Of a stretch of 64,000 nucleotides of DNA, positions 5,420 through 26,639 are shown piece by piece; within the stretch, counting starts at the first letter, position 1, and each line of letters opens with the position of its first letter. The stretch comes from Chryseobacterium nakagawai (GTDB taxonomy: Bacteria > Bacteroidota > Bacteroidia > Flavobacteriales > Weeksellaceae): the NCBI RefSeq assembly GCF_900637665.1, contig NZ_LR134386.1:620001-684000 (forward strand), read 5' to 3'. A program made the position numbers and the translations under genes. The notes beneath the pieces were generated by a model. That model was not told the origin of the DNA and searched no databases. It saw only the letters and a list, made by a program, of their open reading frames with translations.

Positions 5420-7414
5420 ATGGAAAAGTACCGTAGTACAAACCCAGAAAAAATAGACCCAAAAAGACATACTCATAATCATTCAGAAGGAGATGGACAT
5501 ACTCATGATCACGATGACGATGGACATGGCCACTCTCATGATACCGGGGATCAGAGTACCTTTCAGATGTTTCTTCCTGCAATTATATCCTTTATTATTC
5601 TATTGTTAGGAATTGCTTTTGATAACTATATAAAACCGGGCTGGTTTACGGGTTGGGTACGTTTAGTCTGGTTCTTGGCAGCTTATCTTCCTGTAGGGCT
5701 TCCTGTATTAAAGGACGCTTTTAAAAGTATTATCAAAGGTGATGTCTTTTCAGAATTCTTTCTGATGAGTATTGCTACTATTGGTGCCTTTGCGATTGGA
5801 GAATATCCCGAAGGAGTAGCCGTAATGCTTTTTTATGCTGTAGGAGAGGTATTTCAGACTATGGCAGTTACCAGAGCAAAAGGAAATATCAAAGCTTTAT
5901 TAGATCAGCGTCCTGATGAGGTTACAATCCTGGAGAATAATCAACCAAAAATCATTAAAGCAAAGGAAAGTAAAATTGGAGAGATCATCCAGTTGAAACC
6001 AGGCGAAAAGTTAGCTTTGGATGGCGAATTACTTTCAGATTCAGCTTCATTCAATACAGCTGCTTTAACAGGTGAAAGTAAGCCGGATACCAAAAATAAA
6101 GGTGAAGTTGTGCTTGCAGGGATGATCAATATGAACAGTGTTGCTCTTGTAAAAGTTAATACAGCTTATGAAGACAGTAAATTAAGTAAAATATTAGAGC
6201 TGGTGCAAAATGCAACTGCTCAGAAAGCCCCTACAGAACTATTCATCAGAAAATTTGCTAAAGTTTACACGCCCATTGTTGTACTTCTTGCCATAGGAAT
6301 CTGTTTACTGCCTTATTTCTTTGTAAGTGATTATCAGTTCAGGGATTGGTTATACAGAGCATTGATCTTTCTTGTAATTTCTTGTCCTTGCGCCTTAGTA
6401 ATTTCCATCCCATTAGGTTACTTTGGAGGAATCGGGGCAGCAAGCCGAAACGGGATTTTATTTAAAGGAAGTAACTTCCTGGATGCTATTGCAGAAATTC
6501 AGAATGTGGTGATGGATAAAACAGGAACAATGACGGAAGGAGTTTTCAATGTTCAGGAGGTAAGTATTGCCCCGGAATTTAATAAAGATGAAATCCTTCA
6601 GATGGTGAATGTATTGGAAAGTAAAAGTACCCATCCGGTTGCTACTGCTATTCACAATTATGTAGGAGATATTAATTATTCTATTCCTTTAGAGAATGTA
6701 GAAGAAATAGCGGGACACGGATTGAAAGCAACTGTCAATGGTAAAGAGCTCCTGGTTGGGAACTTTAAATTAATGGATAAATTCAATATCAATTATGATA
6801 TCAACCATGCGAATATTGTGTATACACTTATTGCAGTGGCTTATGATAAAAGATTTGCGGGATATATTACCATTGCAGACAGTATAAAAGAAGATGCTAA
6901 AGAAACCGTTGATAATCTTCATAAAATGGGTGTAAAAGCGACCATGCTGAGTGGAGATAAAGGAACTGTGGTGAAGTATGTAGCCGATCAGCTGGGAATT
7001 GATAATGCATTCGGAGATCTTCTTCCGGAAGATAAGGTGAATAAAGTAAAAGAGATCAAAGCAAAAAACCAGACCGTGGCTTTTGTAGGAGATGGGGTAA
7101 ATGACGCTCCAGTGGTTGCTTTAAGCGATGTAGGAATCGCGATGGGAGGTTTGGGAAGTGATGCTACCATTGAGACGGCAGATGTTGTTATTCAGGATGA
7201 TAAACCAAGTAAAATTCCAATGGCCATCAATATTGGAAAACAAACGAAAAAGATCGTTTGGCAGAATATTATCCTTGCTTTTGCTGTGAAAGCGGTAGTT
7301 CTTGTACTTGGTGCCGGAGGCTTAGCAACGATGTGGGAAGCTGTATTTGCTGATGTAGGAGTTGCTTTGCTGGCGATCTTAAATGCAGTAAGAATTCAGA
7401 GAATGAAGTTTTAA
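5420..7414 (+). CDS. P1B-type heavy metal translocating ATPase (Zn/Cd/Co type)
   Basis: A 664-residue P-type ATPase exporting soft divalent cations. It lacks a CxxC heavy-metal-associated domain; instead residues 17-40 are a His/Asp-rich tail (HTHNHSEGDGHTHDHDDDGH) that can bind zinc. The catalytic core is intact: actuator loop TGES, membrane metal motif CPC (Cys322-Pro-Cys324), phosphorylation site DKTGT (Asp366), the HP dipeptide in STHPVATAI and the hinge GDGVNDAP. The CPC motif with a His-rich leader suits a ZntA-like Zn/Cd/Co pump. It starts 44 bp after the Fur-family gene and is the last gene of the unit, followed by a terminator at 7447. Confidence 0.96.
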   Translation: MEKYRSTNPEKIDPKRHTHNHSEGDGHTHDHDDDGHGHSHDTGDQSTFQMFLPAIISFIILLLGIAFDNYIKPGWFTGWVRLVWFLAAYLPVGLPVLKDAFKSIIKGDVFSEFFLMSIATIGAFAIGEYPEGVAVMLFYAVGEVFQTMAVTRAKGNIKALLDQRPDEVTILENNQPKIIKAKESKIGEIIQLKPGEKLALDGELLSDSASFNTAALTGESKPDTKNKGEVVLAGMINMNSVALVKVNTAYEDSKLSKILELVQNATAQKAPTELFIRKFAKVYTPIVVLLAIGICLLPYFFVSDYQFRDWLYRALIFLVISCPCALVISIPLGYFGGIGAASRNGILFKGSNFLDAIAEIQNVVMDKTGTMTEGVFNVQEVSIAPEFNKDEILQMVNVLESKSTHPVATAIHNYVGDINYSIPLENVEEIAGHGLKATVNGKELLVGNFKLMDKFNINYDINHANIVYTLIAVAYDKRFAGYITIADSIKEDAKETVDNLHKMGVKATMLSGDKGTVVKYVADQLGIDNAFGDLLPEDKVNKVKEIKAKNQTVAFVGDGVNDAPVVALSDVGIAMGGLGSDATIETADVVIQDDKPSKIPMAINIGKQTKKIVWQNIILAFAVKAVVLVLGAGGLATMWEAVFADVGVALLAILNAVRIQRMKF

Positions 7415-8399: not shown

Positions 8400-8608
8400 C
8401 TTATAAATTCTAAAGCCTTGTAACCAAAGTTCGCCATAATATTAACATGATGACAGATACAGTTTTATTAAATTTATAGGTATCAGATTGCTGAGGATAT
8501 TTAAAAACTCTTTAATGCCTTTGGATATTCCTATGTACATTAAGGAAATTTAGAAGAACTCATTAATGACATTCATCATAAATAAGAGGTAAAACAGTTT
8601 TGAAATAG

Positions 8609-8634: not shown

Positions 8635-8997
8635 TTGAAGCTATTCATTTCCATATTTATCATTTTTACGGTTGCAGTACGTCCTGTTCTGCCTCTGGTA
8701 AACTATGCTGTAAACTATGATTATATTGTGAAAAATCTTTGTGAAAACAGAAAAGTTCCTCAGTCTACCTGTAAAGGGAAATGTTATGTAGAGAAAGAGC
8801 TGGCAAAAACAGAAAAGCAATCAAACAGTTCACAAACGGTAAAGATTGCAGGGCTGGATGTTTTCCTTTCCAATGAAATCCTTTCTTTTTTAGAGCATAA
8901 ATATATTGAGCCACGGATTGAAGCTCCAGGTTCATATTATTTTGATTTACATTCTTCAGACTATTTTTCCAGGATATTCCATCCTCCTTTAGTTTAA
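8635..8997 (+). CDS. Small conserved Cys-motif protein A of the copper locus
   Basis: A 120-residue protein beginning at a TTG codon, with an N-terminal hydrophobic anchor (LFISIFIIFTVAV). It is clearly related to the product of 10914-11285: both share P-L-V-x-Y-A-V-N-Y-x-Y-I, then LCxN, a spaced Cys, CxGKCY and ELAKT. Here the Cys motifs are NLCENRKVPQSTCKGKCY, three Cys within 15 residues in what should be the periplasmic part. I do not recognise a named family. The neighbours (YHS lipoprotein, SCO, copper-type TonB receptor) suggest a role in metal, probably copper, binding or delivery; that is inference. Confidence 0.75.
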   Translation: MKLFISIFIIFTVAVRPVLPLVNYAVNYDYIVKNLCENRKVPQSTCKGKCYVEKELAKTEKQSNSSQTVKIAGLDVFLSNEILSFLEHKYIEPRIEAPGSYYFDLHSSDYFSRIFHPPLV

Positions 8998-9175
8998 TTT
9001 TTATATTGAACTAATGTTTTAGTTTTAAACTAAAATACACTTAAACAATTTATTATAGATTTACATGAAAAGCTATGTTAATTTTATATGATAGCATCTG
9101 ATCGTGTGGTTATTTTGATGTATTGTTTAATCTCGTAATTTTATTCAATAGTATTAATTTCAATTGATTATTAAA

Positions 9176-9448
9176 ATGAAATTTCAAATTATTTTGACGG
9201 CTTTGCTGTCAATAGCCCTGTTGTCGTGTACAAAAGAACCTCAGGTAAAACATAAAATGAACATGAGCACTTCAGGGGAAAATATAAAGAATGTCCAGGT
9301 AGTGAATGAAGAAGATCCTATTTGTCACATGAAAACCGCAGGCTCTTTAAAAGATACTGCAGTATATAAAGCTAAGGTATATGGCTTTTGCAGTTCGTAT
9401 TGTAAAGATGAATTCAAAAAAAATCCTGAAAGCTATGCCAAAAAATAA
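9176..9448 (+). CDS. YHS-domain lipoprotein
   Basis: A 90-residue lipoprotein; the signal MKFQIILTALLSIALLSC ends in a lipobox Cys18, which fixes the start at this ATG rather than one four codons upstream. A Met/His-rich linker (KHKMNMS) is followed by a YHS domain with EEDPICHMK and YGFCSSYCKDEF; YHS domains bind metals, often copper or heavy metals, through such Cys residues. Its 3' end overlaps the start of the SCO gene by 14 bp, so the two are translated together. The pairing suggests that it supplies or accepts copper in the periplasm alongside SCO. Confidence 0.88.
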   Translation: MKFQIILTALLSIALLSCTKEPQVKHKMNMSTSGENIKNVQVVNEEDPICHMKTAGSLKDTAVYKAKVYGFCSSYCKDEFKKNPESYAKK

Positions 9449-10100
9449 TAAGACTAAGGTTATTATTCCGATTGCCATTTTTGCTTTACTTTTCTTAGGG
9501 ATAGGAGTGGGAATGAGTTACTTTAAAAAGAATCTTTATACGGTGATGAAGGTTCCTGATTTTGAACTGACAGATCAGAATGGTAAAAAAATAACCAATA
9601 AAGATATGCTGGGAAAGGTGTATCTGGTAGAGTTTTTCTTCAGTAAATGTCCTACGATATGCCCGGTGATGAATACGAATATGAAGGCCGTTCAAAACCA
9701 TATCAATAATCCTGATTTCGGAATTATTTCTATCAGTATCGATCCGGAAAATGATACTCCGGAAGCTTTGAAAGAACACGCTCAAAGAATTGGAGCGAAA
9801 TCTCCTAACTGGCATTTCCTGACGGGTGATAGAAGTTATATTGGTAAATTAGCCGATCAGTTCAATATCTATGTTGGAGACAAAGAAGATGAAGCAGAAA
9901 GTCTTAATCACAGTGGAATGATTGCTTTGGTAGATGAAAAAGGGAACATTCGTTGCAGGTATAATAAAGAAAATATGCCGATTCTTTATTATTCAGGATT
10001 GAATTATGAGGATCCGGAAGGAAAAAATCCTAAGCTAAATGGAAAATATCATCCGGATAGAGAAATCCTGATTGAGGATATTAAGAAGTTATTAAATTAG
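9435..10100 (+). CDS. SCO1/SenC family copper chaperone
   Basis: A 221-residue membrane-anchored thioredoxin-fold protein that delivers copper to (or reduces) the CuA site of cytochrome c oxidase or another cuproenzyme. The start chosen gives a clean N-terminal anchor (VIIPIAIFALLFLGIGVGM). The copper ligands are all present: Cys72 and Cys76 in SKCPTICPVM, and His159 in SLNHSGMIALVDEKG. The start codon lies inside the YHS gene (14-bp overlap). No oxidase genes are adjacent; the neighbours are copper-uptake type proteins. Confidence 0.95.
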   Translation: MPKNNKTKVIIPIAIFALLFLGIGVGMSYFKKNLYTVMKVPDFELTDQNGKKITNKDMLGKVYLVEFFFSKCPTICPVMNTNMKAVQNHINNPDFGIISISIDPENDTPEALKEHAQRIGAKSPNWHFLTGDRSYIGKLADQFNIYVGDKEDEAESLNHSGMIALVDEKGNIRCRYNKENMPILYYSGLNYEDPEGKNPKLNGKYHPDREILIEDIKKLLN

Positions 10101-10103
10101 AAG

Positions 10104-10200
10104 GAAGAATGGTAGCTGGAAGTATTGATCGTTAAGCAATTCTTTAATTGTTTTTAAAATTTCAAGTACTCCCATCTTCCGGCCTCAAACTTCCATTCTA
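10104..10200. repeat. Degenerate palindromic intergenic element
   Basis: Between the SCO and superoxide dismutase genes, the stretches around 10104-10128 and 10171-10200 carry imperfect inverted pieces (AGAATGG and GGAAGT on the left, ACTTCCATTCT on the right). It could fold as a long weak hairpin in the mRNA. Its function is unknown. Confidence 0.35.
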
Positions 10201-10235
10201 AAGTAAAATATTGTTTAACCATATAACAAAACATT

Positions 10236-10910
10236 ATGAAGATTATGAAAATTGCTGCTTTAGGAGCAGTATTAGCAGCTCAGTTTACACTGGCTCAGTT
10301 TAAGCAAACTCCTTTACCGTATGCTTATAATGCATTAGAAGGATCAATAGATGCGCAGACAATGGAAATTCATTATTCAAAGCATGGTGCTGCATATGCT
10401 GCCAACTTGAATAAAGCCATTGCCGGAACTCCACAGGAAAAAGAAACTTTACTTAAGATTCTTTCTGAAACTTCCAAGCTAAGTCCTGCGGTAAGAAACA
10501 ATGCGGGAGGACATTATAACCACGAGCTTTTCTGGACGATCCTTACTCCGGAGAAAAATACTCAACCTTCTGCAAAATTAGCAAAAGCTATTAACGAAAC
10601 TTTCGGAAGTCTGGATGCTTTCAAAGAAAAGATGAGTAAAGCTGGTGCAGACCGTTTTGGATCAGGATGGGCATGGCTTGCCGTGGATAAAAACGGAAAA
10701 CTTTTCGTTTCCTCTACCCCTAATCAGGACAATCCATTGATGGATATTGTAGAAGAAAAAGGAACTCCTATTCTGGGAATAGATGTGTGGGAACACGCTT
10801 ATTACCTGAAATATCAGAACAAGAGAGCAGATTATCTTTCTGCAATCTGGAATGTGCTGAACTGGAAAGAAGTCAGCAAAAGATATGATGAAGCTTTAAG
10901 CAAAAAATAA
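10236..10910 (+). CDS. Exported Fe/Mn superoxide dismutase
   Basis: A 224-residue iron/manganese superoxide dismutase, which converts superoxide to oxygen and hydrogen peroxide. The mature enzyme is preceded by a signal peptide ending FTLA-QF, so it works outside the cytoplasm, which is unusual for this family outside Bacteroidota. Metal ligands are visible: His in MEIHYSKHGAAY, His in GGHYNHELFW, and Asp/His in GIDVWEHAYYLKY. It lies three bases before the second small Cys protein and within the copper locus, consistent with protection from metal-driven superoxide in the periplasm. Confidence 0.95.
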   Translation: MKIMKIAALGAVLAAQFTLAQFKQTPLPYAYNALEGSIDAQTMEIHYSKHGAAYAANLNKAIAGTPQEKETLLKILSETSKLSPAVRNNAGGHYNHELFWTILTPEKNTQPSAKLAKAINETFGSLDAFKEKMSKAGADRFGSGWAWLAVDKNGKLFVSSTPNQDNPLMDIVEEKGTPILGIDVWEHAYYLKYQNKRADYLSAIWNVLNWKEVSKRYDEALSKK

Positions 10911-10913
10911 TTA

Positions 10914-11285
10914 ATGAAAATAATTTACAGCATACTCTTTATTGGCTATATGGTGTTCAGACCTCTGATCCCTTTGGTTGAGTATGCTGTAAATTATAAT
11001 TATATTGCCAACACGCTTTGTGTTAATAAAAGCAAACCGGAAGTTCACTGTAACGGAAAATGCTACTTAAGCAAAGAGCTGGCAAAAACCAATGCTGATA
11101 CGGAATCTACTCCTTTCAACAAAGCAAAGAATTCAGGGCAGAAAATTCTTGATGTGTATACGCTGCCTGAGATTGTAGAAGTTGCTATCACCGGAAAAAT
11201 TATTGTTTCCAATTTCAATTTTCTCTACGAAACAGATTATTCTTTTCTGTTTCTGAAACACATTTTCAAACCACCTGTTTTTTAG
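10914..11285 (+). CDS. Small conserved Cys-motif protein B of the copper locus
   Basis: A 123-residue relative of the 8635-8997 product. It has an N-terminal hydrophobic segment (IIYSILFIGYMVF), the shared RPLIPLVEYAVNYNYI, and the Cys motifs TLCVNKSKPEVHCNGKCY followed by ELAKT. Only three bases separate it from the superoxide dismutase stop, so the two are coupled. The C-terminal half ends HIFKPPVF, comparable to the RIFHPPLV ending of the other copy, showing that relatedness runs the whole length. The function is unknown; paired Cys in the exported part and the context point to metal handling. Confidence 0.8.
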   Translation: MKIIYSILFIGYMVFRPLIPLVEYAVNYNYIANTLCVNKSKPEVHCNGKCYLSKELAKTNADTESTPFNKAKNSGQKILDVYTLPEIVEVAITGKIIVSNFNFLYETDYSFLFLKHIFKPPVF

Positions 11286-11379
11286 GATTCAACTATTCAC
11301 TTATAGAGATTAACCACAAAAGTTTATTGAACATAGTTTTAATAAGCTTAATGCTTCATGCTTAATAAGTTTACAAAAA

Positions 11380-11400
11380 TTGAAAATCTTTGATTTTCAA
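11380..11400. other. Hairpin, possible terminator
   Basis: A perfect 9-bp stem (TTGAAAATC, loop TTT, GATTTTCAA) follows the small Cys protein B gene by about 95 bp. It lacks a good T run on the plus strand, so its role as a terminator is doubtful. Confidence 0.35.
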
Positions 11401-11545
11401 AAAAGCTTAAGTGCACTTTCAACAATTCAGTTGTAACTCTTAAGTAACTTAAGTATAAAATCTTTTGTGCCTTTTGTGGTAAAAAATATTGGATGTTTTC
11501 GCATTCAAAGTATTTCTATTGTATTATCAACTAAAAAAATCAACA

Positions 11546-12469
11546 ATGAAAATGTATCAACTTTTTGTAATGAGTGTACTGTTGATGGTTGTTTCCTGCA
11601 CCCTCGACAAAACAGATTACGAAAATGAAACCAATACAACTGTTCCGGAACTCTATGAATTTAAAGAAGCAACAGCTATAAATAAAGATCATTATAAAAT
11701 AAGTATTGAAACTTTAAACGGAACATTTTATCAAGGGTATAATGAAATCAGAGTAAAGGTCATCAATACTCAGACAAACGAAAATATCAATGCTTCGGAA
11801 GTTACTTTTTTACCCATCATGACGAAAGGTGATGGAAGCAAAACTTCATGTCCATATCAATATATTCTGAGCTACAAACCGGATGGTAAGTACTATTTAG
11901 GGTATTCCGTATTTACGGATAAAAGCAATGCACTGGCAAATTGGAGCTTTTATTTGAGTTTCACAGTCAATCAGAAGATATATGCCATCAATAAAGATAT
12001 CACGGTTAATGAACAGGGGAATAAGAACCTTAATATGACCTCTTTTACGGGAAATGACGGTGAACAATATTGTATTGCACTTATTGCGCCTCAAAAACCG
12101 AAAGTTGCAGAAAACAGCTTGGTAGCAGGAATCTATAAATACAATAAGCCTGCTGTATCTACAGGGAATTTTCCTGATCCTATACAGTTTTCTTATTCGG
12201 AAGTGAAGGGCTATACTCTGCAATTGGATCCAAGAATGCCGGAACCTTCTATGGGAAATCATTCATCTCCCAATAATCAGGATTTAATACAAGGGAATGA
12301 CGGATTGTATCACGGTCTTGTCAATTATACCATGACAGGAAACTGGACCTTAAATTTTATCATGCTGAACCAAAATGGTAAGATCATCAAAGGAACTAAG
12401 GTTTCTACTGATTTTACACCAGGTGTTCCGGGCGTTAAAAGTGAACTTTTTATTGATACTTTATTCTAA
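11546..12469 (+). CDS. Lipoprotein with two YtkA-like copper-protein domains (putative)
   Basis: A 307-residue lipoprotein (MYQLFVMSVLLMVVSC). I see two similar halves. The second has DPRMPEPSMGNHSSPN followed by GNDGLYHGLVNYTMTGNWTL, strongly reminiscent of YtkA/FixH-like domains (MPxMGH, then Y-x-G, then M-x-G-x-W). The first shows a weaker version (FLPIMTKGDGSKTSCPYQ, GKYYLGYSVF, NWSFYLSF). Met/His clusters like these bind copper in related proteins. The next gene, a copper-type TonB receptor, starts four bases after the stop, so this is probably the partner surface or periplasmic binding protein. The family call is pattern-based, not proven. Confidence 0.7.
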   Translation: MKMYQLFVMSVLLMVVSCTLDKTDYENETNTTVPELYEFKEATAINKDHYKISIETLNGTFYQGYNEIRVKVINTQTNENINASEVTFLPIMTKGDGSKTSCPYQYILSYKPDGKYYLGYSVFTDKSNALANWSFYLSFTVNQKIYAINKDITVNEQGNKNLNMTSFTGNDGEQYCIALIAPQKPKVAENSLVAGIYKYNKPAVSTGNFPDPIQFSYSEVKGYTLQLDPRMPEPSMGNHSSPNNQDLIQGNDGLYHGLVNYTMTGNWTLNFIMLNQNGKIIKGTKVSTDFTPGVPGVKSELFIDTLF

Positions 12470-12473
12470 TTTC

Positions 12474-14453
12474 ATGAAGCAGTTTGGAATTATATTAATC
12501 TTTTTGGGAGTTATTATCAATGCCCAAAACAGAAAAGTACGAAAAGATAGTATTGCTCATTTAGCTGAGGTAAAAGTAAAAAGCAATAAAAAGAAGATTG
12601 AAACGGATATGAAAATGGCCGTTTCAGTGGATGAATTTCTAGCATCTTCGGACAAAATAAGCTTTATAAAACGAGGGGCATATGCGTGGGAGCCCTTACT
12701 CAATAATATGAGTACGGAAAGATCTGTCATTACTCTTGATGGGATGCGTATTTTTGGAGCATGCACTGATAAAATGGATCCGGTTACCTCCTATATGGAA
12801 AGTAATACTCTTTCAGGGGTAGATATAAAATCAGGTCAGGAAGGAAGTTCACATGGAGCAACAGTAGCAGGAAGTATTGATCTGAAAAGAAAAAGTACTC
12901 CTTTTGGTCTTGAAAAAAAATGGAATGGGGCCTATCAGACAGGTTTTGAATTCAATAATAAGCAGTTTTTTAACCTTGGAAATATATCCTATTCCGGGAA
13001 GAAGCTTGTGGTAGACGGAAGTATTTCCTTCCGGAAAGCAGGTAATTATTACGATGGGAATGATGTAGAAGTAAATCACTCTCAATATAATAAGTTTAAT
13101 ACGGGAATTGGAATCGCTTACAAAACAAGTCTTTTATCTTCAGTGAAAGTGGATGCAATCTTTGATATGGCAAAGAATGTTGGATTTCCTGCTTTACCAA
13201 TGGATTTATGGCTTTCCAGAGCAATGATTACCTCAGCATCCTACAAACAATTATTTCAAGAAGGATTAATTAAGTCCTGGGATACAAAAATCTATTTCAA
13301 TACCATTGAACATTATATGGATGACACAAAGCGTCCTGAGAATCTGGTACACATGGATATGCCGGGATGGAGTACTACCTATGGGCTGGTTTCTTCAATG
13401 AATCTCACAAAAGAGCGGTATACTTCAGACATAGAACTTAATGCCTACAACAATACATCAATTGCAGAAATGCGGATGTATCCTCAGGATAGAAAGAACA
13501 GAACTATGTTTGCGTATAGCTGGCCTTGGGTAACTACACGTTTTGCCAGTCTTTCGATGAATAACAAATGGGATATATCTGATAAAAGCCGTTTGAGTTT
13601 CGGAGGATCATTAGGACTGAACTATAATGAGTCTAAATATCCTGAATTCAATTGGATCTTCCATCCGGGAGCATCACCGAAAAAGACTAGAATTCTTCCC
13701 AGCCTGCATGCAGGATATCAATTTACCAATCATCATTTTAATTTTTCTGTAGGAACGGGCTACGGCCATAGAGCGCCTTCCGTTTCAGAAGGGTATGGCT
13801 ATTATATCTACAACAGCTTTGACCGCTATGACTATATCGGAAATCCTGACCTAAAAAATGAAATTTCTTATGAAACCAATGCCAGTGCAGGTTTTAGGAA
13901 TGAAAAGATGAGTATTGAAGCCAAAGTGAATTACTTCTATATTCAGAATTATATTATCGGAAGAATTCTGAGTCTTGGAAGTCCTATGAATTATCAATCG
14001 GTAGGAGTAAAGGCTTATACTTCACTGGATCATGCCACACTCTTTAATATGTCTCTGAATGCCAATTACAGCATTATTCCGGATTTACACTGGAAAGGAA
14101 CATTGACGTATGCAAGAGGAAGGGATGATAAAGGAAAAAATCTGCCTTTCATCCGTCCTTTGAGCTATCTGACCTCTTTACATTATACCCATGGGAATTT
14201 TGGAGTTCAGACCTCTGTAAATGGAGATTTTGTTCAGCTTAATTACAGTCCGGAATATGGTGAAGATCAGACAGCGGCTTACACCGTATGGAATTTTTCC
14301 ATGGATTATACTTTCAAAATCAAAAAACTTAAGACCATTTTTCAGGTAGGAGCCGAAAACCTGTTAAACAAATATTACAGCACCTATGCAGACTGGGGAA
14401 ATATCCCAAGAATGGGTCGTAATATTTATACGTCTTTAAAAGTCAACTTTTAA
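12474..14453 (+). CDS. TonB-dependent outer-membrane copper receptor (OprC/NosA-like)
   Basis: A 659-residue TonB-dependent receptor with a signal peptide (MKQFGIILIFLGVIINAQ), plug domain (residues ~30-140) and a 22-strand-type barrel ending in an aromatic-rich strand (YTSLKVNF). The plug contains IFGACTDKMDPVTSYME: Cys97 and Met101 form the CxxxM motif, and His280-Tyr-Met282 (EHYMDD) forms the HxM motif. In OprC of Pseudomonas these two motifs together bind copper, and the surrounding residues also resemble OprC/NosA. Import of copper is therefore a strong prediction. It has no carboxypeptidase-like N-terminal domain and is not a SusC-type protein. It lies between the YtkA-like lipoprotein and the MbnP-like gene. 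Confidence 0.9.
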   Translation: MKQFGIILIFLGVIINAQNRKVRKDSIAHLAEVKVKSNKKKIETDMKMAVSVDEFLASSDKISFIKRGAYAWEPLLNNMSTERSVITLDGMRIFGACTDKMDPVTSYMESNTLSGVDIKSGQEGSSHGATVAGSIDLKRKSTPFGLEKKWNGAYQTGFEFNNKQFFNLGNISYSGKKLVVDGSISFRKAGNYYDGNDVEVNHSQYNKFNTGIGIAYKTSLLSSVKVDAIFDMAKNVGFPALPMDLWLSRAMITSASYKQLFQEGLIKSWDTKIYFNTIEHYMDDTKRPENLVHMDMPGWSTTYGLVSSMNLTKERYTSDIELNAYNNTSIAEMRMYPQDRKNRTMFAYSWPWVTTRFASLSMNNKWDISDKSRLSFGGSLGLNYNESKYPEFNWIFHPGASPKKTRILPSLHAGYQFTNHHFNFSVGTGYGHRAPSVSEGYGYYIYNSFDRYDYIGNPDLKNEISYETNASAGFRNEKMSIEAKVNYFYIQNYIIGRILSLGSPMNYQSVGVKAYTSLDHATLFNMSLNANYSIIPDLHWKGTLTYARGRDDKGKNLPFIRPLSYLTSLHYTHGNFGVQTSVNGDFVQLNYSPEYGEDQTAAYTVWNFSMDYTFKIKKLKTIFQVGAENLLNKYYSTYADWGNIPRMGRNIYTSLKVNF

Positions 14454-14497
14454 AGATGACAGAAACTTTAATTAAAACAACAACTAAAATTTTTAAA

Positions 14498-15364
14498 ATG
14501 CAAAACTTAAAACAATATCTACTATTATCTGCTTTTTCATTAGGTGTAATTTCTTGCCAAAACAGTGATGATAATCCTGTTGCCAATAACGTTACCCTTG
14601 AATTCAAGAATACGTTTAAAAATGAAACGATTATTCTCGGAGGTGCTACTTCAAGTACAGCCACGATCAATACCTCAGCAGAAGGACAGGCTCATCATTT
14701 TTCAGAATTGAAATATGTAATCAGTAATATTCGTCTGGTAAAAGCAGATGGTAATGAAGTCCCTTATAAAGTCAATGATCTGGATCAGGGCGCTACAGTG
14801 ATTGACCAATCAAAACCGGAAACGCTTCGTTACTTATTGAGTAATATACCTGCTGGAGAGTATAAAAAAATCAAATTCGGATTAGGAGTAAAAAAAGATC
14901 TGAATGTTTTGGATCAGGTGAGATTTCCAAAGTTCTATGCCACTGCAGGTTCCAATGATACCCAAATGATGTGGGAGTGGGGAGCAGGGTATCGTTTTAC
15001 AAAAATTGAAGGTTTTTATGGAACAGATAACAAACAGATGTCTATCCACACAGGAAGTACCATAAAAGGATCAGAAGGTAATTTTACCCAGGGAGTAGAT
15101 GCGTATAGAGATGTCACTTTAGATCTTTCCCAACATGCTATCGTGGGTAGCAAAGCGCCTAAAATTATTATTAAAGCAGATTTTGATAAATTGTTGACGG
15201 GGAAAATCAATACGATTGTATTGGTTACGGGAACAGGATCAGATGGCAATGCTACTCCGAATATTCATACTGCTAACCAAATGGTAAAATTTGTTGATAA
15301 CCTCGGTGGAAACGGTTCAAGTGATATTTCCGGAATGTTTTCAGTGAGTGCTGTTGAAAACTAA
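14498..15364 (+). CDS. MbnP-family copper-binding lipoprotein
   Basis: A 288-residue lipoprotein (MQNLKQYLLLSAFSLGVISC) of the MbnP family. Recognisable conserved stretches are LEFKNTFKNETIILGG, HHFSELKYVISNIRLVKADG, KIKFGLGVKKDLN and MMWEWGAGYRFTKIEG. In methanotrophs the partner protein MbnP binds copper through a Trp oxidised to kynurenine by the diheme protein MbnH; the Trp pair in MMWEWGAGY is a candidate site. The MbnH-like gene follows at once, overlapping only beyond the stop region. Starts at 14456 or 14498 are both possible; the second gives the proper lipoprotein signal. Confidence 0.88.
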   Translation: MQNLKQYLLLSAFSLGVISCQNSDDNPVANNVTLEFKNTFKNETIILGGATSSTATINTSAEGQAHHFSELKYVISNIRLVKADGNEVPYKVNDLDQGATVIDQSKPETLRYLLSNIPAGEYKKIKFGLGVKKDLNVLDQVRFPKFYATAGSNDTQMMWEWGAGYRFTKIEGFYGTDNKQMSIHTGSTIKGSEGNFTQGVDAYRDVTLDLSQHAIVGSKAPKIIIKADFDKLLTGKINTIVLVTGTGSDGNATPNIHTANQMVKFVDNLGGNGSSDISGMFSVSAVEN

Positions 15365-15380
15365 ACTTCTTTCTGCTGCA

Positions 15381-16400
15381 ATGAAAAAAGGATTAAGCAT
15401 TTTAGCCATTATTATTCTGTTAATATCTTGTAATAACGATCGTTACGAACCTATTTCTGGCGATAATCCACAGATTTCGCTCAATATTCCGTCTGGATTT
15501 CCGGAACTAAACAATTCGGTGAACTCTAACAGACCTACAAAATATGGAGTAGAGTTGGGGGAAAAATTATTTAATGAGAAAAGGCTGAGTGCAGATAATA
15601 GTATTTCCTGCTCCAGTTGTCATATACAAGGAAATGCCTTTGCAGATCATAATGCACAGGGAATAGGAATTCAGAATAGAGTAGGATTGCGAAATGTTCC
15701 TGCTATTCAGAACATGCTCTTTATGAAGTTTTATAATTGGGATGGCAATATCCTTCAATTGGAGAATCAACCCTTAGTTCCTATTATCACTCATGAAGAA
15801 ATGGGTTCTTCTATTCTGGAGGTGATAGGCAAAATAAGAGATGATATGATGTATAAAGATCTGTTCCGAAAAGCCTTTGGAGACGAAACCATTACTGCTG
15901 AAAGAATTTATAAAAGTATTGCACAGTATGAGTACACCCTGATTTCTGCTAATAGCAAATATGATAAGGTAAAAAGAAAAGGAGGAGAAACTTTCACAGA
16001 AAATGAAGCCTTGGGATATCAGACTTTTCAACAGAAATGTGTGAGTTGTCATAATACAGAATTATTTACCGATCAGAGTTTCAGAAATATCGGGTTTCCT
16101 GTAAATCCGGATACCAATGAGGCGGGACGGGGAAGAGTTACCGGTATTCCAGCAGATTATATGAGCTTCAGAGTTCCTTCTTTAAGAAATGTAGAATATA
16201 CGGCTCCTTATGGAAGCTATGGCCAGTTCCCAACATTAAGGGCAGTCCTTGATTATTTTGATAAAGGGGTTCTATCTGCAGATAATCTTGATCCTGTTTT
16301 TAAAAATAATGGAAACAGAATTCCTCTCTCAGAGCAGGAAAAGACCAATCTTATCCTGTTTCTGAAAACACTGAGCGATCGTGAATTTGTGAAAAAATAA
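15381..16400 (+). CDS. Diheme cytochrome c peroxidase-like protein (MbnH/MauG type), lipoprotein
   Basis: A 339-residue periplasmic lipoprotein (signal ending ILLISC) with two c-type haem sites: CSSCH in SISCSSCHIQGNAFADH and CVSCH in QQKCVSCHNTELF. The overall pattern (FNEKRLSADNSISCSSCH, VPAIQNMLF, FYNWDGNILQLENQ, FRVPSLRNVEYTAPYGSYG) is that of the cytochrome c peroxidase/MauG superfamily. Directly after an MbnP-like gene it is most likely MbnH-like, oxidising a Trp of its partner rather than detoxifying peroxide. It is the last gene of the copper locus; a terminator follows 42 bp downstream. Confidence 0.92.
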   Translation: MKKGLSILAIIILLISCNNDRYEPISGDNPQISLNIPSGFPELNNSVNSNRPTKYGVELGEKLFNEKRLSADNSISCSSCHIQGNAFADHNAQGIGIQNRVGLRNVPAIQNMLFMKFYNWDGNILQLENQPLVPIITHEEMGSSILEVIGKIRDDMMYKDLFRKAFGDETITAERIYKSIAQYEYTLISANSKYDKVKRKGGETFTENEALGYQTFQQKCVSCHNTELFTDQSFRNIGFPVNPDTNEAGRGRVTGIPADYMSFRVPSLRNVEYTAPYGSYGQFPTLRAVLDYFDKGVLSADNLDPVFKNNGNRIPLSEQEKTNLILFLKTLSDREFVKK

Positions 16401-16442
16401 TCATTGCTAAAAACAGAAAAACTCAGTAAAAATTGATTGTTT

Positions 16443-16471
16443 AAATCCCGTTACAATGTAGCGGGATTTTT
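16443..16471 (+). terminator. Terminator closing the copper locus
   Basis: AAATCCCGTTAC pairs with GTAGCGGGATTT around the loop AAT and runs into a T5 tract. It separates the diheme gene from the cobalamin riboswitch. Confidence 0.88.
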
Positions 16472-16531
16472 CATGTTTATTGATTGATAATCATTTTGTT
16501 CTGCATACCATCGTATCTGGTGGGAATTTTA

Positions 16532-16539
16532 TATCTTTG
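16532..16539 (+). promoter_or_regulatory. -7 promoter element TATCTTTG of the B12 operon
   Basis: Matches TAnnTTTG and lies immediately before the riboswitch, as expected for the transcript that carries it. No clear -33 TTG is present. Confidence 0.55.
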
Positions 16540-16706
16540 CCGGAATTTGGTGAGCCATAATAAGCTCTTAAAAGGGAATCCGGTGAAAATCCGGAACAGA
16601 CCCGCTGCTGTAAGCTCCACACCAAAGTTTTTGAAAAATAGATCCACTGTTTTTAGGAATGGGAAGGATTTCAAAAACGGAGTAAGTCAGAAGACCTGCC
16701 AGAAAT
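16540..16706 (+). ncRNA. Cobalamin (vitamin B12) riboswitch
   Basis: The conserved core is plain: AAAAGGGAATCCGGTGAAAA, then TCCGGAACAGACCCGCTGCT followed by GTAA, and the closing B12 box AGTCAGAAGACCTGCC near 16684-16700. This RNA element binds adenosyl- or other cobalamins and represses the genes downstream when B12 is plentiful. It precedes a BtuB-like receptor by about 110 bp. A possible expression-platform pairing is TGACGCT at 16717-16723 with AGCGTCA at 16803-16809, just before the start codon. Confidence 0.95.
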
Positions 16707-16818
16707 AATAAACGTTTGACGCTTTCGTGGAATAAAGCTTAGGACAACAATGATTTTGTGCAGTGACAGCTGTGCTTTGTCGTTGCTTTTCTTATATCCA
16801 TTAGCGTCATCATGATCC

Positions 16819-18873
16819 ATGAATGAGCTAATGATAGCAAAACTAACTACATTTCAATTCCATAAAATTGTTTTCACGGCATTCGTGTTTACCTCACAAT
16901 TCCTGTTTTCTCAGACTCATAAAAAAGACAGTATTAAAGGAGAAGCTATAAAGACTGTCAATATTTACAAAAAGAATTTTAAAGAAATCCTTCCTGCTCA
17001 GGTCTTACAAGGCGAAGAGCTTGAACGGCTCAACAGTCATTCTGTTGCTGATGCACTGAGATATTTTGCCGGAGTTCAGATTAAAGATTATGGCGGAATG
17101 GGTGGTTTGAAGACGGTCAATATCCGAAGTATGGGAAGTCAGCATGTAGGTGTTTTCTATGATGGAATCCAATTAGGGAATGCTCAGAACGGATTGGTAG
17201 ACTTAGGAAGGTATTCTTTGGATGATCTTGAAGAAATCTCATTGTACAACGGTCAGAAAAGTGAAATTTTCCAGCCTGCCAAAGATTTCGGGTCATCGGG
17301 ATCCATTTATTTACAACCCAAAACACCAACATTCACCGGCGGTAAGAAAACCAATCTTCTGATCAGAGCAAAAAGTGCTTCTATTGATTTATTTAATCCT
17401 TCCTTCCGTTTAGAACAAAAAATTTCAAAAAGAATTTCAGCAAGCGCCAGTGCAGAATTTCTCCAAAGTGATGGCCTTTACAAATTTTACTATGGTAGGA
17501 AATTCCCAAACGGTACTACAGCAGCTGATACCATTTCCAAAAGATATGATTCCGATATTAAGGCAAAGCGTTTTGAAACCGCTATTAATGGAACTTTAAA
17601 TAACGGAAGCTGGAATATCCGTGGATACGGTTATATTTCAAACCGTGGTATTCCGGCACCTATTGTAAAGAAGCGTTTTAAAGCAAGAGGTGCAAGAATG
17701 CTTGATGAAAACTATTTTGTACAGGCCAATTTCAGAAAAAAGCTGTTTCCTAAGCTTGAAACTCAGCTGAAGGCGAAGTTTGCTTATGATTATACTTATT
17801 TTAATGATACAGTATTATCTCAGGCAGTTTATCCCGCAAAAAATACCTATATCCAACGGGAGGTTTATCTTTCATCTTCCAATATTTATACAATCAATTC
17901 AAATTGGGATGTGAGTTTAAGTGGGGACTTTCAGTATAATAATCTTGATGCTGATTTACGTGAATTTTCTTATCCTACGCGTTATACAACTCTTGTTGCA
18001 TTGGCTACAACCTATCAGTGGAACAGATTTAAATTCTTAGGAAGCCTTTTAGGGACATTTACCTTTGAGGAGGTAAGAATGAACAAGCGACCTGATGACA
18101 GAAGAGAATTTACACCAGCCTTCTTTATGAGCTACCAGCCGACTTCAATACCGGAACTTACGCTTAGGGCATTCTATAAAAATATCTTCAGATTACCAAC
18201 TTTTAATGATCTGTATTATACCAGCGTAGGAAATACTTATCTGCAACCCGAGTTTACCCATCAGTATGATGTAGGGTTTACGTATCAGAAAAAATACGAT
18301 CATTCTTTATTTAAAGGACTTTATATAAAAGTAGATGGATATTATAACAAGGTAACAGATAAAATTGTTGCTGTCCCTACTACCAATATGTTTAGATGGA
18401 TGATGCTGAACCTTGGAAAGGTCGAAATCATCGGAACAGACGTGAACATTCAGACCGAATTAATGTTTGGAGATGTAAAAGTTAAACCATTATTAGCATA
18501 TACCTACCAGAGAGCGAAAGATAAAACGATTAGTGAAGGGAAGACAGAAACCTATTATGGACAACAAATCCCTTATACACCCAGGCATAGTGGATCTTTT
18601 ACCTTAATGGCCGACTATAAAGACTGGAGCTTCAACTACAGTACAATTTATGTAGGAGAAAGATATGATGGGCAGCTGGATAATATTCAGTACAATTTTA
18701 TTCAGCCCTGGTATACCCACGATCTTTCTGTTCAGAGAAAATTGAGACTGGCAGGGCATCCTTTTAAAATCAACCTTGAAATGAACAATGTTTTTAACCA
18801 ATATTATGATGTGGTAAAAAACTATCCTATGCCGGGAAGAAATTTCAGACTCACTTTAAACTTCACCTTATGA
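16819..18873 (+). CDS. btuB: TonB-dependent cobalamin receptor BtuB
   Basis: A 684-residue outer-membrane TonB-dependent receptor with a signal peptide (FHKIVFTAFVFTSQFLFSQ), a plug domain (LNSHSVADALRYFAGVQIKD, then VNIRSMGSQHVGVFYDGIQL) and a barrel ending NFRLTLNFTL. Receptor families look alike, but the cobalamin riboswitch directly upstream and the BtuG-like gene directly downstream make vitamin B12 (or a corrinoid) the predicted cargo. An ATG four codons further in is also possible. Its stop codon overlaps the next start (ATGA), so the genes are translationally coupled. Confidence 0.93.
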   Translation: MNELMIAKLTTFQFHKIVFTAFVFTSQFLFSQTHKKDSIKGEAIKTVNIYKKNFKEILPAQVLQGEELERLNSHSVADALRYFAGVQIKDYGGMGGLKTVNIRSMGSQHVGVFYDGIQLGNAQNGLVDLGRYSLDDLEEISLYNGQKSEIFQPAKDFGSSGSIYLQPKTPTFTGGKKTNLLIRAKSASIDLFNPSFRLEQKISKRISASASAEFLQSDGLYKFYYGRKFPNGTTAADTISKRYDSDIKAKRFETAINGTLNNGSWNIRGYGYISNRGIPAPIVKKRFKARGARMLDENYFVQANFRKKLFPKLETQLKAKFAYDYTYFNDTVLSQAVYPAKNTYIQREVYLSSSNIYTINSNWDVSLSGDFQYNNLDADLREFSYPTRYTTLVALATTYQWNRFKFLGSLLGTFTFEEVRMNKRPDDRREFTPAFFMSYQPTSIPELTLRAFYKNIFRLPTFNDLYYTSVGNTYLQPEFTHQYDVGFTYQKKYDHSLFKGLYIKVDGYYNKVTDKIVAVPTTNMFRWMMLNLGKVEIIGTDVNIQTELMFGDVKVKPLLAYTYQRAKDKTISEGKTETYYGQQIPYTPRHSGSFTLMADYKDWSFNYSTIYVGERYDGQLDNIQYNFIQPWYTHDLSVQRKLRLAGHPFKINLEMNNVFNQYYDVVKNYPMPGRNFRLTLNFTL

Positions 18874-20006
18874 GAAAGCTAAATATTTATTTCTTGTTTT
18901 TTGCATTGGTAACGCTTGTTTCCTGTCGTACCGATGAGATTCTTATTCCTATGGAAGTTGTGGAAGGGCTTAACCCTGTTGAAAACACGGGAATAAAAGG
19001 ATTCTATGTATTGAATGAAGGAAATATGGGAAGCAATAAATGCACCCTTGATTTTTTTGATTATACCAAAGGCACCTATTATCGGAATATTTATTCCGAG
19101 ATCAATCCGAATGTTTTAAAAGAACTGGGAGACGTAGGAAATGATATTAAAATCTATGGAAGCAAGCTATATATTGTGGTCAATGTTTCCAATACCATCG
19201 AAGTTCTTGATGCTAAGACTGCCAAGCATATTAAATCAATTTATTTACAGAATTGCAGATACATGACCTTCAAGGATGGAAAAGCGTATGCCAGCAGCTA
19301 TGCCGGTCCTGTAGATATCAATCCGCTGGCTCCCAAAGGTAAAGTTGCAGAAATAGATACTGTATCCCTTTCCATCCAGCGTACAGCAACAGTAGGATAC
19401 CAGCCCGAAGAAATGGAAATTGTGGGAAATCAATTATTTGTTGCCAATTCCGGAGGATACATGGTTCCGAATTATGATAGGACTGTTTCTGTAATTGATC
19501 TGAACACTTTTACAGAAAAGAAAAAAATTGATGTTGCCATTAACCTTCACCGTCTTAAAAAAGACAATTACGGAGATCTATATGTAAGTTCAAGAGGAGA
19601 TTATTATAATGTTCCTTCCAATTTATACCTGGTAGATGCAGCAACCGGAGTGATAAAGAAAGACTTTCATATTGCCGTTAGTGAAATGACCATCGTGAAT
19701 GATAAGTTGTATTACTACGGAAATGAATTCAATTATAATACCCATGCTTATGTAAAAACATTTGGAATCATAGACGTAAAGAATGAGCAGGTTATTTCCA
19801 ATAGGATTATTGATAAAGAATACGAATCCATCATTAAAACACCTTACGGAATCGCAGTCAATCCAATTACAGAAGATATTTATATGACAGATGCCCGAAA
19901 CTACGTATCAATGGGATTTGTATACTGTTTTGATAAAAACGGACATTTTAAATGGAAAACCGAAGGTGGAAATATCCCTGCCCATTTTGCCTTTTTATAT
20001 AATTAA
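18870..20006 (+). CDS. BtuG-like surface beta-propeller lipoprotein
   Basis: A 378-residue lipoprotein (MRKLNIYFLFFALVTLVSC) made of YncE-like beta-propeller repeats, for example GFYVLNEGNMGSNKCTLDFF, NTIEVLDAKTAKHIKSIYL, TVSVIDLNTFTEKKKIDV and SNLYLVDAATGVIKKDF. In Bacteroides, BtuG is such a propeller; it caps BtuB at the cell surface and captures cobalamin with very high affinity. The 4-bp overlap with btuB and the shared riboswitch support the same role here. The equivalence to BtuG is inferred from fold pattern and context. Confidence 0.85.
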   Translation: MRKLNIYFLFFALVTLVSCRTDEILIPMEVVEGLNPVENTGIKGFYVLNEGNMGSNKCTLDFFDYTKGTYYRNIYSEINPNVLKELGDVGNDIKIYGSKLYIVVNVSNTIEVLDAKTAKHIKSIYLQNCRYMTFKDGKAYASSYAGPVDINPLAPKGKVAEIDTVSLSIQRTATVGYQPEEMEIVGNQLFVANSGGYMVPNYDRTVSVIDLNTFTEKKKIDVAINLHRLKKDNYGDLYVSSRGDYYNVPSNLYLVDAATGVIKKDFHIAVSEMTIVNDKLYYYGNEFNYNTHAYVKTFGIIDVKNEQVISNRIIDKEYESIIKTPYGIAVNPITEDIYMTDARNYVSMGFVYCFDKNGHFKWKTEGGNIPAHFAFLYN

Positions 20007-21245
20007 ATGAAACTGATCAACATGAATAAAAAAACTATTACTTATTTAACAGCTGGGTTTTTATCCCTTCTATTTGCAGGAATGATTGCGTCCTGTCAGC
20101 ATGATGATGAGGTTGCAGCACCGGTTCCTACTGATCCGGAAGTAATACCTCCCACGTTTAAAGGATTAGATACTGCTTATACCATTGAACGTTTCAGGGT
20201 ACTGAGTATTCCTACCAATATTTCAGGAAACATTACCTGGAGCATTAATGACTCTATCATCTCCCAGAATTCCGAACTGGAATTTATCAGCACAAAGACC
20301 GCTACTTATCCTTTAACATTAAAAGTAGGAAGCGATAAAGTTTTTCATTCTAAAATCAGAGTCACCAAAGAAGCAGGAACATTAAGTAAATACATTTCCA
20401 AAGTTTTTGACTTCCGTCCGGCAGTAGGACAGTTTATGAATGAAATTCCAGAATATGATTTGGGCAATACAGCAGCAGATATGATTAAAAAAGCCAATGA
20501 CTATCTGGTAGGTTCTAATTCTTCCATGATAAGCCTTGGAGGTTTCGGAGGACATGTAGTGTTTGGTTTCGATCATACCATTCCTAATATGGAGGGAAGA
20601 GATTTTAAAATATTAGGCAATGCGTTTTTTGGAAACTCTGCTAATGATCCTCGCTCCGGAAGTTGTGAGCCAGGAATTATTATGGTAGCCTATGATAAAA
20701 ATAAAAATGGAAAACCTGATGATGATGAGTGGTACGAAATTGCAGGCAGTGAGTACTTTAAAAATACGACGACCAAAAATTATAATATTACTTACTTCAA
20801 ACCTAATGAAAATAAAGCTCCCGTTCCGGGAAATGACGGCTGGCAGACAGATATAGAATATATCAAATGGCAGGATAATCTTGGGAACACAGGATTTAAA
20901 ACAAAAAATGCATTCCATTCACAGAGTTACTATCCTTTATGGCTTTCAGATGCTTCTTACAGTTTTACAGGGACCAGGCTTAAAGATAATTTTTATGATC
21001 AGAGTGGAGTAGGAAACTATTGGGTAGGAAAATCCTATGAATTTGGATATGCGGATAATGCCCCTAATAATGATGAGGCTTCCAATATCGATATTTCATG
21101 GGCAGTTGACAAAAACGGAAAATATGTGAAGCTTCCGGGAATAGATTTCGTAAAAGTATACACTGGAATCAATCAGGAAGCCGGATGGCTGGGGGAGGTT
21201 TCTACAGAAGTGGCAGGAGCCTACGATTTACATCTAAAAAAATAA
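20007..21245 (+). CDS. Surface lipoprotein of the B12 uptake operon, uncharacterised
   Basis: A 412-residue predicted lipoprotein (signal MNKKTITYLTAGFLSLLFAG, acylated at the Cys of IASC). The ATG used abuts the previous stop; one five codons in (20022) is equally good. After a Pro-rich stretch there is an Ig/PKD-like region (FRVLSIPTNISGNITWSIND), then a large domain with GGHVVFGFDHTIPNMEGRDF, GSCEPGIIMVAYDKNKNGKPD (a Ca-binding-like Asp loop) and WLSDASYSFTGTRLKDNF. I do not recognise a named function. As the third gene under the cobalamin riboswitch it is likely an accessory corrinoid-binding surface protein. Confidence 0.85.
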   Translation: MKLINMNKKTITYLTAGFLSLLFAGMIASCQHDDEVAAPVPTDPEVIPPTFKGLDTAYTIERFRVLSIPTNISGNITWSINDSIISQNSELEFISTKTATYPLTLKVGSDKVFHSKIRVTKEAGTLSKYISKVFDFRPAVGQFMNEIPEYDLGNTAADMIKKANDYLVGSNSSMISLGGFGGHVVFGFDHTIPNMEGRDFKILGNAFFGNSANDPRSGSCEPGIIMVAYDKNKNGKPDDDEWYEIAGSEYFKNTTTKNYNITYFKPNENKAPVPGNDGWQTDIEYIKWQDNLGNTGFKTKNAFHSQSYYPLWLSDASYSFTGTRLKDNFYDQSGVGNYWVGKSYEFGYADNAPNNDEASNIDISWAVDKNGKYVKLPGIDFVKVYTGINQEAGWLGEVSTEVAGAYDLHLKK

Positions 21246-25917: not shown

Positions 25918-25945
25918 AAAAAGGACTTTCGAAAAAATCCTTTTT
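25918..25945 (-). terminator. Terminator after the tRNA-Glu cluster
   Basis: AAAAAGGA pairs with TCCTTTTT; a T-rich tract follows on the minus strand directly after the last tRNA gene. Confidence 0.7.
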
Positions 25946-25947
25946 GG

Positions 25948-26019
25948 TAGCCCGTAGGGGAATCGAACCCCTCTTACCAGAATGAAAATCTGAGGTCCTA
26001 ACCGATAGACGAACGGGCC
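25948..26019 (-). tRNA. tRNA-Glu (anticodon TTC), copy 1
   Basis: On the minus strand the 72-nt gene has an acceptor stem GGCCCGT/ACGGGCT (one G-U pair), D arm GTCTATCGGTTAGGAC, anticodon loop TTTTCAT (anticodon TTC) and T arm GGGGTTCGATTCCCC. CCA is not encoded. It is identical to the next two copies. Confidence 0.97.
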
Positions 26020-26084
26020 CTCTATCTTCCACTATCGAAATAGTGTGTTAGCTTTTGTTTTTACAAGTATCAACTCTTAATTTG

Positions 26085-26156
26085 TAGCCCGTAGGGGAAT
26101 CGAACCCCTCTTACCAGAATGAAAATCTGAGGTCCTAACCGATAGACGAACGGGCC
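26085..26156 (-). tRNA. tRNA-Glu (anticodon TTC), copy 2
   Basis: Same 72-nt sequence and structure as copy 1. It is separated from copy 1 by a 65-bp spacer containing a small hairpin (CACTAT, loop CGAA, ATAGTG at 26030-26045). Confidence 0.97.
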
Positions 26157-26193
26157 GGTTAGATGGTTTAAGTAATAGCTTTTTTCTACTTTG

Positions 26194-26232
26194 TTTTTAA
26201 AAACCACTGTAAAACTCAGTGGTTTTTAAAAA
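26194..26232. other. Hairpin in the tRNA spacer
   Basis: TTTTTAAAAACCACTG and CAGTGGTTTTTAAAAA form a perfect 16-bp inverted repeat in the spacer between tRNA copies 2 and 3. It may be a processing site or an attenuator in an rpsT-tRNA transcript. Confidence 0.6.
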
Positions 26233-26237
26233 TTAAG

Positions 26238-26309
26238 TAGCCCGTAGGGGAATCGAACCCCTCTTACCAGAATGAAAATCTGAGGTCCTAACCGATAGAC
26301 GAACGGGCC
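26238..26309 (-). tRNA. tRNA-Glu (anticodon TTC), copy 3
   Basis: Same 72-nt sequence as copies 1 and 2. It starts 9 bp after the rpsT stop codon on the minus strand, with no promoter in between, so it is probably cut from the rpsT transcript. Confidence 0.97.
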
Positions 26310-26318
26310 GCTATACTT

Positions 26319-26573: not shown

Positions 26574-26591
26574 ATCGTTCAAATGTGAGTG

Positions 26592-26622: not shown

Positions 26623-26639
26623 ATTAATTTTGAAAAAAT

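Follow-up and report, generated by a model that had tools for sequence, protein, structure and literature searches.

A probable outer-membrane copper-import unit with an OprC-like TonB-dependent receptor in an exchangeable cassette of Chryseobacterium nakagawai

The stretch of DNA considered here, hereafter the window, comprises 64,000 nucleotides of Chryseobacterium nakagawai (contig NZ_LR134386.1, positions 620,001 to 684,000 of the forward strand; the host genome is one contig of 5.6 Mb), and according to the list of open reading frames (ORFs) nine plus-strand ORFs fill its positions 8635-16400. The predicted products make it likely that this locus is an outer-membrane copper-import unit, placed on a periplasmic copper-delivery scaffold and feeding an SCO1/SenC-type chaperone (SCO) and oxidases. 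The nine genes form two units, a Chryseobacterium scaffold with the order Cys1-YHS-SCO-SOD-Cys2, in which Cys1 and Cys2 are small cysteine-containing proteins and SOD is a superoxide dismutase, and a cassette YtkA-receptor-MbnP-MbnH, whose receptor is, as judged from alignments, an OprC-like TonB-dependent receptor. An initial annotation, made from the letters alone, had regarded the nine genes as a probable copper acquisition island. Nine plus-strand ORFs were indeed present and families could be assigned, but the superoxide dismutase, being an Fe/Mn enzyme, does not belong to the copper proteins, and conservation does not extend to the nine genes as a whole; YHS, SCO and SOD vary among relatives.

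Numbered from the Met codon at 12474, the CTDKM segment of the receptor (12762-12776) contains Cys97 and Met101, and the HYM segment, beginning at 13311, contains His280 and Met282, in agreement with the positions given by the initial annotation. OprC was the top PDB match of a profile of 12 receptor sequences (2.9e-42 over 592 positions), and in this alignment the four residues stand opposite Cys143, Met147, His323 and Met325 of OprC (chain positions counted by hand from the printed alignment rows). In OprC it is these residues that bind the copper (PMC8610252; this and the other cited papers are represented by those parts of their text that were available). A CxxxM element in the plug and an HxM element in the barrel were found at the OprC positions, and the four residues match, by alignment only, a solved OprC structure in which they converge. 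With a first, poorer model, the plug of which was poor, Foldseek recognised the fold of a TonB-dependent receptor, plug and barrel included; OprC chains took ranks 1-28, followed by PhuR, ChuA and ZnuD, and the identity to OprC in the Foldseek alignment was about 16%. A second model, built from 60 sequences, reached a mean predicted local distance difference test score of 89.5, with about 90 in the plug. No Pfam model matched the receptor at E 0.1, and its NCBIfam matches were the TonB-copper (TIGR01778) and TonB-hemin models alone, both below cut-off; the receptor is a member of the TIGR01778 superfamily and not the curated equivalog.

The Cys-Met-His-Met set proposed initially is kept by the homologues. 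It was found in 51 of 51 homologous loci obtained by protein and profile searches without motif preselection, a set which includes the window, counts four places twice and leaves out the weak partial matches L025-L032. When 148 genomes of the order were searched, 21 rows were obtained, the window included and weaker partial matches left out, all of which keep the four residues. They were likewise kept in 81/81 rows of a wider, partly pattern-chosen set, and in a 60-row receptor alignment they account for four of the 15 invariant columns. The latter two sets are partly circular for the Cys and Met of the plug, and not for His280 and Met282, owing to the scan patterns ACTD[KR]MDP and HMDMPGW and to the filtering of part of the 60 rows for C...MD; this filter excluded L023, L170 and L172, and the count of 51 loci was made without it.

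The gene order of the cassette is equally constant. Among the named relatives, which are the best 80 of at least 593, the genes for YtkA, receptor, MbnP and MbnH follow one another in this order on one strand in all 80 (in one, L098, a contig end cuts MbnH); those closest to the receptor are from Chryseobacterium. A small Cys gene is found no more than 5 kb away in 78, and the two exceptions have only 0.9 and 0.4 kb of contig ahead of the receptor. Compared with three Flavobacterium-type and Sphingobacterium loci (L040, L047, L063), the cassette proteins show 64-79% identity, and the five loci of the 80 in which YHS, SCO and SOD genes occur together all belong to Chryseobacterium. More distant receptors were mostly found in the arrangement small Cys-YtkA-receptor, with no MbnP or MbnH in the fetched stretch (L232, L233, L235, L236, L237, L239); L238 has YtkA-receptor without a small Cys gene, L234 has MbnP and MbnH, and the still more distant L240-L242 have small Cys-receptor alone.

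Within the genus the cassette and a receptor-less version are alleles of one site. The receptor is present in 13 of 98 Chryseobacterium genomes and MbnP in 82, 77 of these with one match. Twelve of the 13 carriers have a receptor of the window type, one of them broken by stops, and the thirteenth is divergent and lacks MbnP. The twelve cassette loci (the window, L034, L035, L037-L039, L255-L258, L260 and L261) show the same scaffold followed by YtkA-receptor-MbnP-MbnH, except that no separate Cys1 was found in L035; some of these genomes may be one species in two collections. All 15 receptor-less loci examined have Cys1-YHS-SCO-SOD-Cys2 and then a different MbnP-MbnH pair, the unit ending with a small barrel-like protein with a CDxCGC segment (e.g. 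L244, 9918-10865), for which PF13557 gave 36.8 bits with one copy while another copy remained without family, and which is a candidate for an alternative copper gate. The scaffold proteins of these 15 loci are 55-95% identical to those of the window, their MbnP only 33-39%. Blastn homology between the window and L244 breaks off at 11486 and is found again from 16525, six bases ahead of a cobalamin riboswitch, and the two versions represent an allelic swap. In the other receptor-less loci the left end fell at 11283-11500 (11500 being the end of the query), and on the right side homology resumed at 16525-16526 in seven of the 15, the remaining eight giving no match because the flank differed or was not reached. 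Of the cassette loci, L260 (G406) has a receptor and MbnP that are apparently broken, and L259 (G393) and L262 (G453), of the same genus, contain divergent small Cys-YtkA-receptor units with a receptor about 40% identical and no MbnP or MbnH in the fetched stretch.

In an MbnH tree of 57 rows, which omits the broken cassette locus, the copies that belong to Chryseobacterium cassettes fall into a single clade (96/81) among copies from Flavobacteriaceae, Sphingobacteriaceae and other cassettes, and the copies of the native, receptor-less allele lie across a 100/100 branch. Trees of the scaffold proteins placed the carriers with 4 (SCO), 5 (SOD) and 3 (Cys2) changes, of which the well-supported branches force only 1, 2 and 1; they thus fix neither how often the cassette was transferred within the genus nor which allele came first. 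Among the twelve carriers of the window-type receptor a second MbnP locus was found in the genome of the window only, the broken carrier showing two pieces of one. This second locus (G000:C1:3582929-3593900; L002, L033) contains the genus-native MbnP-MbnH-barrel set with a YHS gene and a small Cys gene without the N-terminal part, and adjoins a gene which by eye is dnaE-like. It was considered as the displaced original, at 3.58 Mb, of the allele replaced in the window; since its MbnH groups with native copies of a different lineage of the genus (98/95), re-acquisition is as likely.

The proteins that accompany the receptor also retain a number of residues. MbnP scored 126.7 bits with PF20243 (cut-off 27), and W159, W161 and H184 are present in 29/29 rows and H66 in 28/29, the rows spanning both allele types; in the MbnP family copper is bound through kynurenine. 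The MbnH protein has a CCP_MauG domain (PF03150) with two CxxCH haem sites, both kept in 80/80 rows, and Trp120 and Tyr292 are kept in 79/80. It is a feature of MauG that Tyr replaces the axial Met of the peroxidases, and Tyr292 was considered as such a ligand; on recount it sits one column ahead of the peroxidase Met in the alignment to 1iqc, and it was dropped as support. In the YtkA-like protein M231, M236 and H239 are invariant in 79 aligned rows; its PF13115 score is 30.9 bits against a cut-off of 25.9, which no single stretch reaches alone, and its best PDB match was a fimbrial-subunit fusion (3.8e-5), a copper resistance protein following at 0.34. Sequence searches of the PDB found no relative of MbnP (best profile E 0.033) or of the small Cys proteins. 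At least two acidic residues directly follow the lipid-bearing Cys in MbnP (62/68), MbnH (67/75) and YtkA (61/68), rows without a recognisable lipobox not being counted, and this would weakly fit the lipoprotein export signals of the SDDDD/SDDFE type described in B. fragilis and F. johnsoniae (PMC5080379).

The small Cys proteins represent a family which is spread across Bacteroidota and for which Pfam and NCBIfam have no model. Neither of the two in the window matched any Pfam or NCBIfam entry, and for the family as a whole the matches were weak, the commonest Pfam entry being DAN (4 of 21 members, best E 0.016). An alignment of 57 diverse members has six invariant columns, namely three Cys, a Gly and the terminal Pro-Pro. 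The family was found in 97 of 247 Bacteroidota genomes (129 matches), and 83 of the matches have a plug-covering OprC-type receptor match (47) or MbnP (47) no more than 6 kb away, 11 being near both, as a raw count. The other 46 matches fall in 45 stretches, and the gene was found again in 43 of them; their 80 downstream neighbours included TonB plug (20), PepSY_TM (7), PF13557 (6) and SCO (5) domains, while the 42 upstream neighbours gave SecA (3), cation efflux (3), SCO (2) and no TonB plug among the 25 commonest of 70 families. In L183, L195, L200, L208 and L210 the small Cys gene stands beside an apparent TonB receptor and a further membrane gene, and the PepSY_TM neighbours recall the CrtA arrangement of Proteobacteria.

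From the lipoprotein signals and the conserved residues of MbnP, MbnH and YtkA we infer surface capture of copper, import by the receptor and a hand-over through the small Cys proteins to SCO. MbnP and the YtkA-like protein, the latter with its Met and His residues, would be surface-facing lipoproteins which collect copper for the OprC-type receptor, and MbnH may mature MbnP by oxidising a tryptophan, with kynurenine as the presumed product. The receptor would bind copper at Cys97/Met101-His280/Met282 and move it inward with TonB energy, and the small Cys proteins, with their three conserved Cys, could accept it in the periplasm. SCO and the YHS protein may then pass it to copper enzymes, most likely haem-copper oxidases, while the Fe/Mn superoxide dismutase would limit oxidative damage. 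The three COX1 genes of the genome suggest that such oxidases are likely copper clients. Nitrous oxide reductase was also considered as a client; PF18764 matched nothing, and as its control matched nowhere either, absence is not established. YtkA-receptor-MbnP-MbnH would act as one cassette, for which other Chryseobacterium hold the MbnP-MbnH-barrel version at the same site. It is tempting to go further and to regard MbnP-MbnH pairs as interchangeable surface modules for copper capture which work with different gates, either an OprC-type receptor or the CDxCGC barrel, the small Cys proteins being periplasmic copper acceptors tied to these gates throughout the phylum; to this wider proposal we would give slightly less than even credence.

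Several observations weigh against the reading as a copper-import unit. The scores with the curated NCBI models are low, namely 79 bits for the receptor with TIGR01778, its best NCBIfam match (cut-off 472), 58.6 for MbnP with TIGR04052 (cut-off 140) and 193 for MbnH with TIGR04039 (cut-off 363). The acidic signal is also present in 112 of 182 other lipoprotein-like ORFs of these loci (62%), and its enrichment is modest. Of the gene order assumed in the initial annotation the four-gene cassette stood, whereas for YHS, SCO and SOD no more than 8, 8 and 7 of the 80 relatives gave a match. MbnP lies within 6 kb of only 10 of 79 plug-covering receptor matches (52 full-length, 27 partial), and such a receptor is near 10 of 90 MbnP places; neither of the two is strictly dependent on the other. 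The correlation of 0.80-0.90 between the pairwise identities of the cassette's four proteins speaks for the reading, as do the clades, but both can also be explained by shared descent alone.

Other functions were weighed against the import of copper by the receptor itself. A methanobactin operon was considered in view of MbnP and MbnH. The only PF05114 (MbnB-family) match of the genome is ChrH-like and adjoins a chryseobasin-type precursor ending in CPACGMG (for the motif see PMC10214503), and the initial statement that no methanobactin genes are visible is upheld in so far as no such operon was seen through PF05114, no model search having been made for MbnA or MbnC. The precursor and the ChrH-like gene are located at 6952-8355 of L268 (G000:C1, about 2.631 Mb). 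Chryseobasin, a modified peptide, is a candidate for a copper chelate (chalkophore) of the cell or its neighbours which the receptor might import, in which case the OprC-like residues would only grip the metal of the complex. The ChrA/ChrH-like pair speaks for this, as does the presence of an MbnB-family gene in 13/13 receptor carriers against 41/85 non-carriers of the genus (Fisher p 2e-4), but the test ignores kinship, 41 genomes have the gene without the receptor, and the cassette also occurs in families beyond those checked for chr genes. Of the copper receptors described, CrtA takes chelated copper (PMC12914433), whereas OprC itself takes ionic copper (PMC8610252). Taken together, we consider chelate import unlikely.

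It is still less probable that the island serves copper tolerance, with MbnP, YtkA and the small Cys proteins sequestering excess copper in the periplasm or at the surface and the receptor playing a minor part. SCO, YHS and the small Cys proteins could serve as sinks, and a gene which by its motifs encodes a P-type ATPase lies upstream at 5420-7414; TonB receptors, however, carry their substrate inward, Pfam found no multicopper oxidase or CusCBA-type gene among the nine, and in methanotrophs the analogous CorA/CorB genes are expressed less when copper is supplied (PMC3621798). We would hardly expect the cassette to handle another soft metal or a mixed set, such as silver or zinc, and not copper specifically: OprC structures have also been solved with silver (PMC8610252), and the zinc receptor ZnuD appears among the fold matches behind OprC, PhuR and ChuA, but copper is indicated by the precise CxxxM-HxM set and by the association with SCO and MbnP. 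Import of copper through the OprC-like receptor remains the reading we prefer.

The features of the locus are collected in Table 1.

Table 1. Features of the copper locus and its borders (positions of the window; the starts of YHS, SCO, YtkA, receptor, MbnP and MbnH are those considered likely in our reading)
Feature	Position	Strand	Basis
Conserved upstream element ATGACATTCATCATAAA (1 position varies), putative operator	8566..8582	+	
Small Cys protein 1	8635..8997	+	N-terminal hydrophobic segment, Cx9CxGKC, C-terminal FxPP; no Pfam/NCBIfam model
YHS-domain lipoprotein	9176..9448	+	PF04945, 40.1 bits
SCO1/SenC-type copper chaperone	9435..10100	+	PF02630, 112.7 bits
Fe/Mn superoxide dismutase, probably exported	10236..10910	+	PF02777, PF00081; signal-like N-terminus by eye
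Small Cys protein 2, same family as protein 1	10914..11285	+	
Exchanged cassette YtkA-receptor-MbnP-MbnH	11487..16524	+	Bounds from receptor-less locus L244 (blastn)
YtkA-like lipoprotein with LDPRMPEPSMGNHSS	11546..12469	+	PF13115
OprC-family TonB-dependent receptor	12474..14453	+	PDB profile match, Foldseek, residue conservation
MbnP-family lipoprotein	14498..15364	+	PF20243; conserved WxW, His66, His184
MbnH/MauG-like di-haem lipoprotein	15381..16400	+	PF03150; two CxxCH, Trp120, Tyr292
Cobalamin riboswitch, outside the cassette at its right edge	16531..16717	+	RF00174, 102.8 bits

The upstream element, which may be an operator, is conserved when 18 such regions from the genus are aligned. 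A genome-wide regulon was sought from it and rejected, as the pattern RTGAYNTTCATCAT has one site in this genome and its reversed control also one; with 3 mismatches the element did not exceed chance in the window. When up to 4 mismatches are allowed, nine of the loci L040-L113 of at least 15 kb contain a site, but in several it is located at the start of YtkA and not upstream. As to the neighbouring genes, the predicted P-type metal ATPase has a His-rich N-terminus and is likewise found upstream in most of the Chryseobacterium loci examined. To the right (16531-21245) the riboswitch precedes genes for a second TonB receptor, a DUF5074 protein and a PKD-like protein in what looks like a vitamin B12 uptake operon, and four consecutive tRNA-Glu(ttc) genes occupy 25945-27533 on the minus strand.

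The passage of copper across the Gram-negative outer membrane has been worked out for few receptors, and to our knowledge the role of MbnP and MbnH without methanobactin is open. The locus joins an OprC-type receptor, an MbnP/MbnH pair, a YtkA-like lipoprotein and a nameless small Cys family in one unit. On one and the same scaffold some species of the genus have the receptor and others lack it, so that the role of MbnP and MbnH becomes directly testable by allele exchange; if the proposal holds, an exchange of cassettes would re-equip the cell surface for copper while leaving the inner delivery line unchanged. The chemistry of MbnH and MbnP is reportedly treated by Kenney 2019 and Manesis 2021, which may cover parts of this association. 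Literature searches, to which subscription papers were mostly inaccessible, found no paper on the exchange of the cassette or on the small Cys family and its linkage.

Among the known systems, OprC/NosA of Pseudomonas is the closest for the receptor, sharing the TonB receptor fold and the CxxxM and HxM elements at aligned positions and being the best PDB match; the receptor described here differs in its low identity, its score below the TIGR01778 cut-off and its neighbours, the YtkA, MbnP, MbnH and small Cys genes. OprC was described for Proteobacteria (PMC8610252), but a flavobacterial OprC-like receptor with the CxxxM-HxM motif, G2EC70 of Bizionia argentinensis, has already been published and was proposed for copper uptake (PMC11213822); the available portion of that account mentions no MbnP/MbnH pair, small Cys proteins or cassette exchange. 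CrtA of Bordetella is also a TonB copper receptor, with SCO or PCuAC genes in a few operons, but, unlike the present receptor, it has no conserved Cys/Met, is mostly followed by PepSY_TM genes and imports chelated copper, according to the accessible text (PMC12914433). CorA/CorB and MopE of methanotrophs resemble the pair described here in combining a surface copper-binding protein (PMC3912023) with a di-haem partner (PMC3621798), yet MbnP shows no marked sequence similarity to MopE or CorA, and the part of the source at hand describes no OprC-type receptor with them (PMC3621798). In the methanotrophs with MbnT, MbnP and MbnH are likewise neighbours, sometimes beside a TonB receptor, and such pairs are known far beyond the methanobactin producers (PMC3621798); in the locus described here, by comparison, the scores fall below the NCBI cut-offs, no methanobactin operon was seen, and the receptor next to the pair is of the OprC type.

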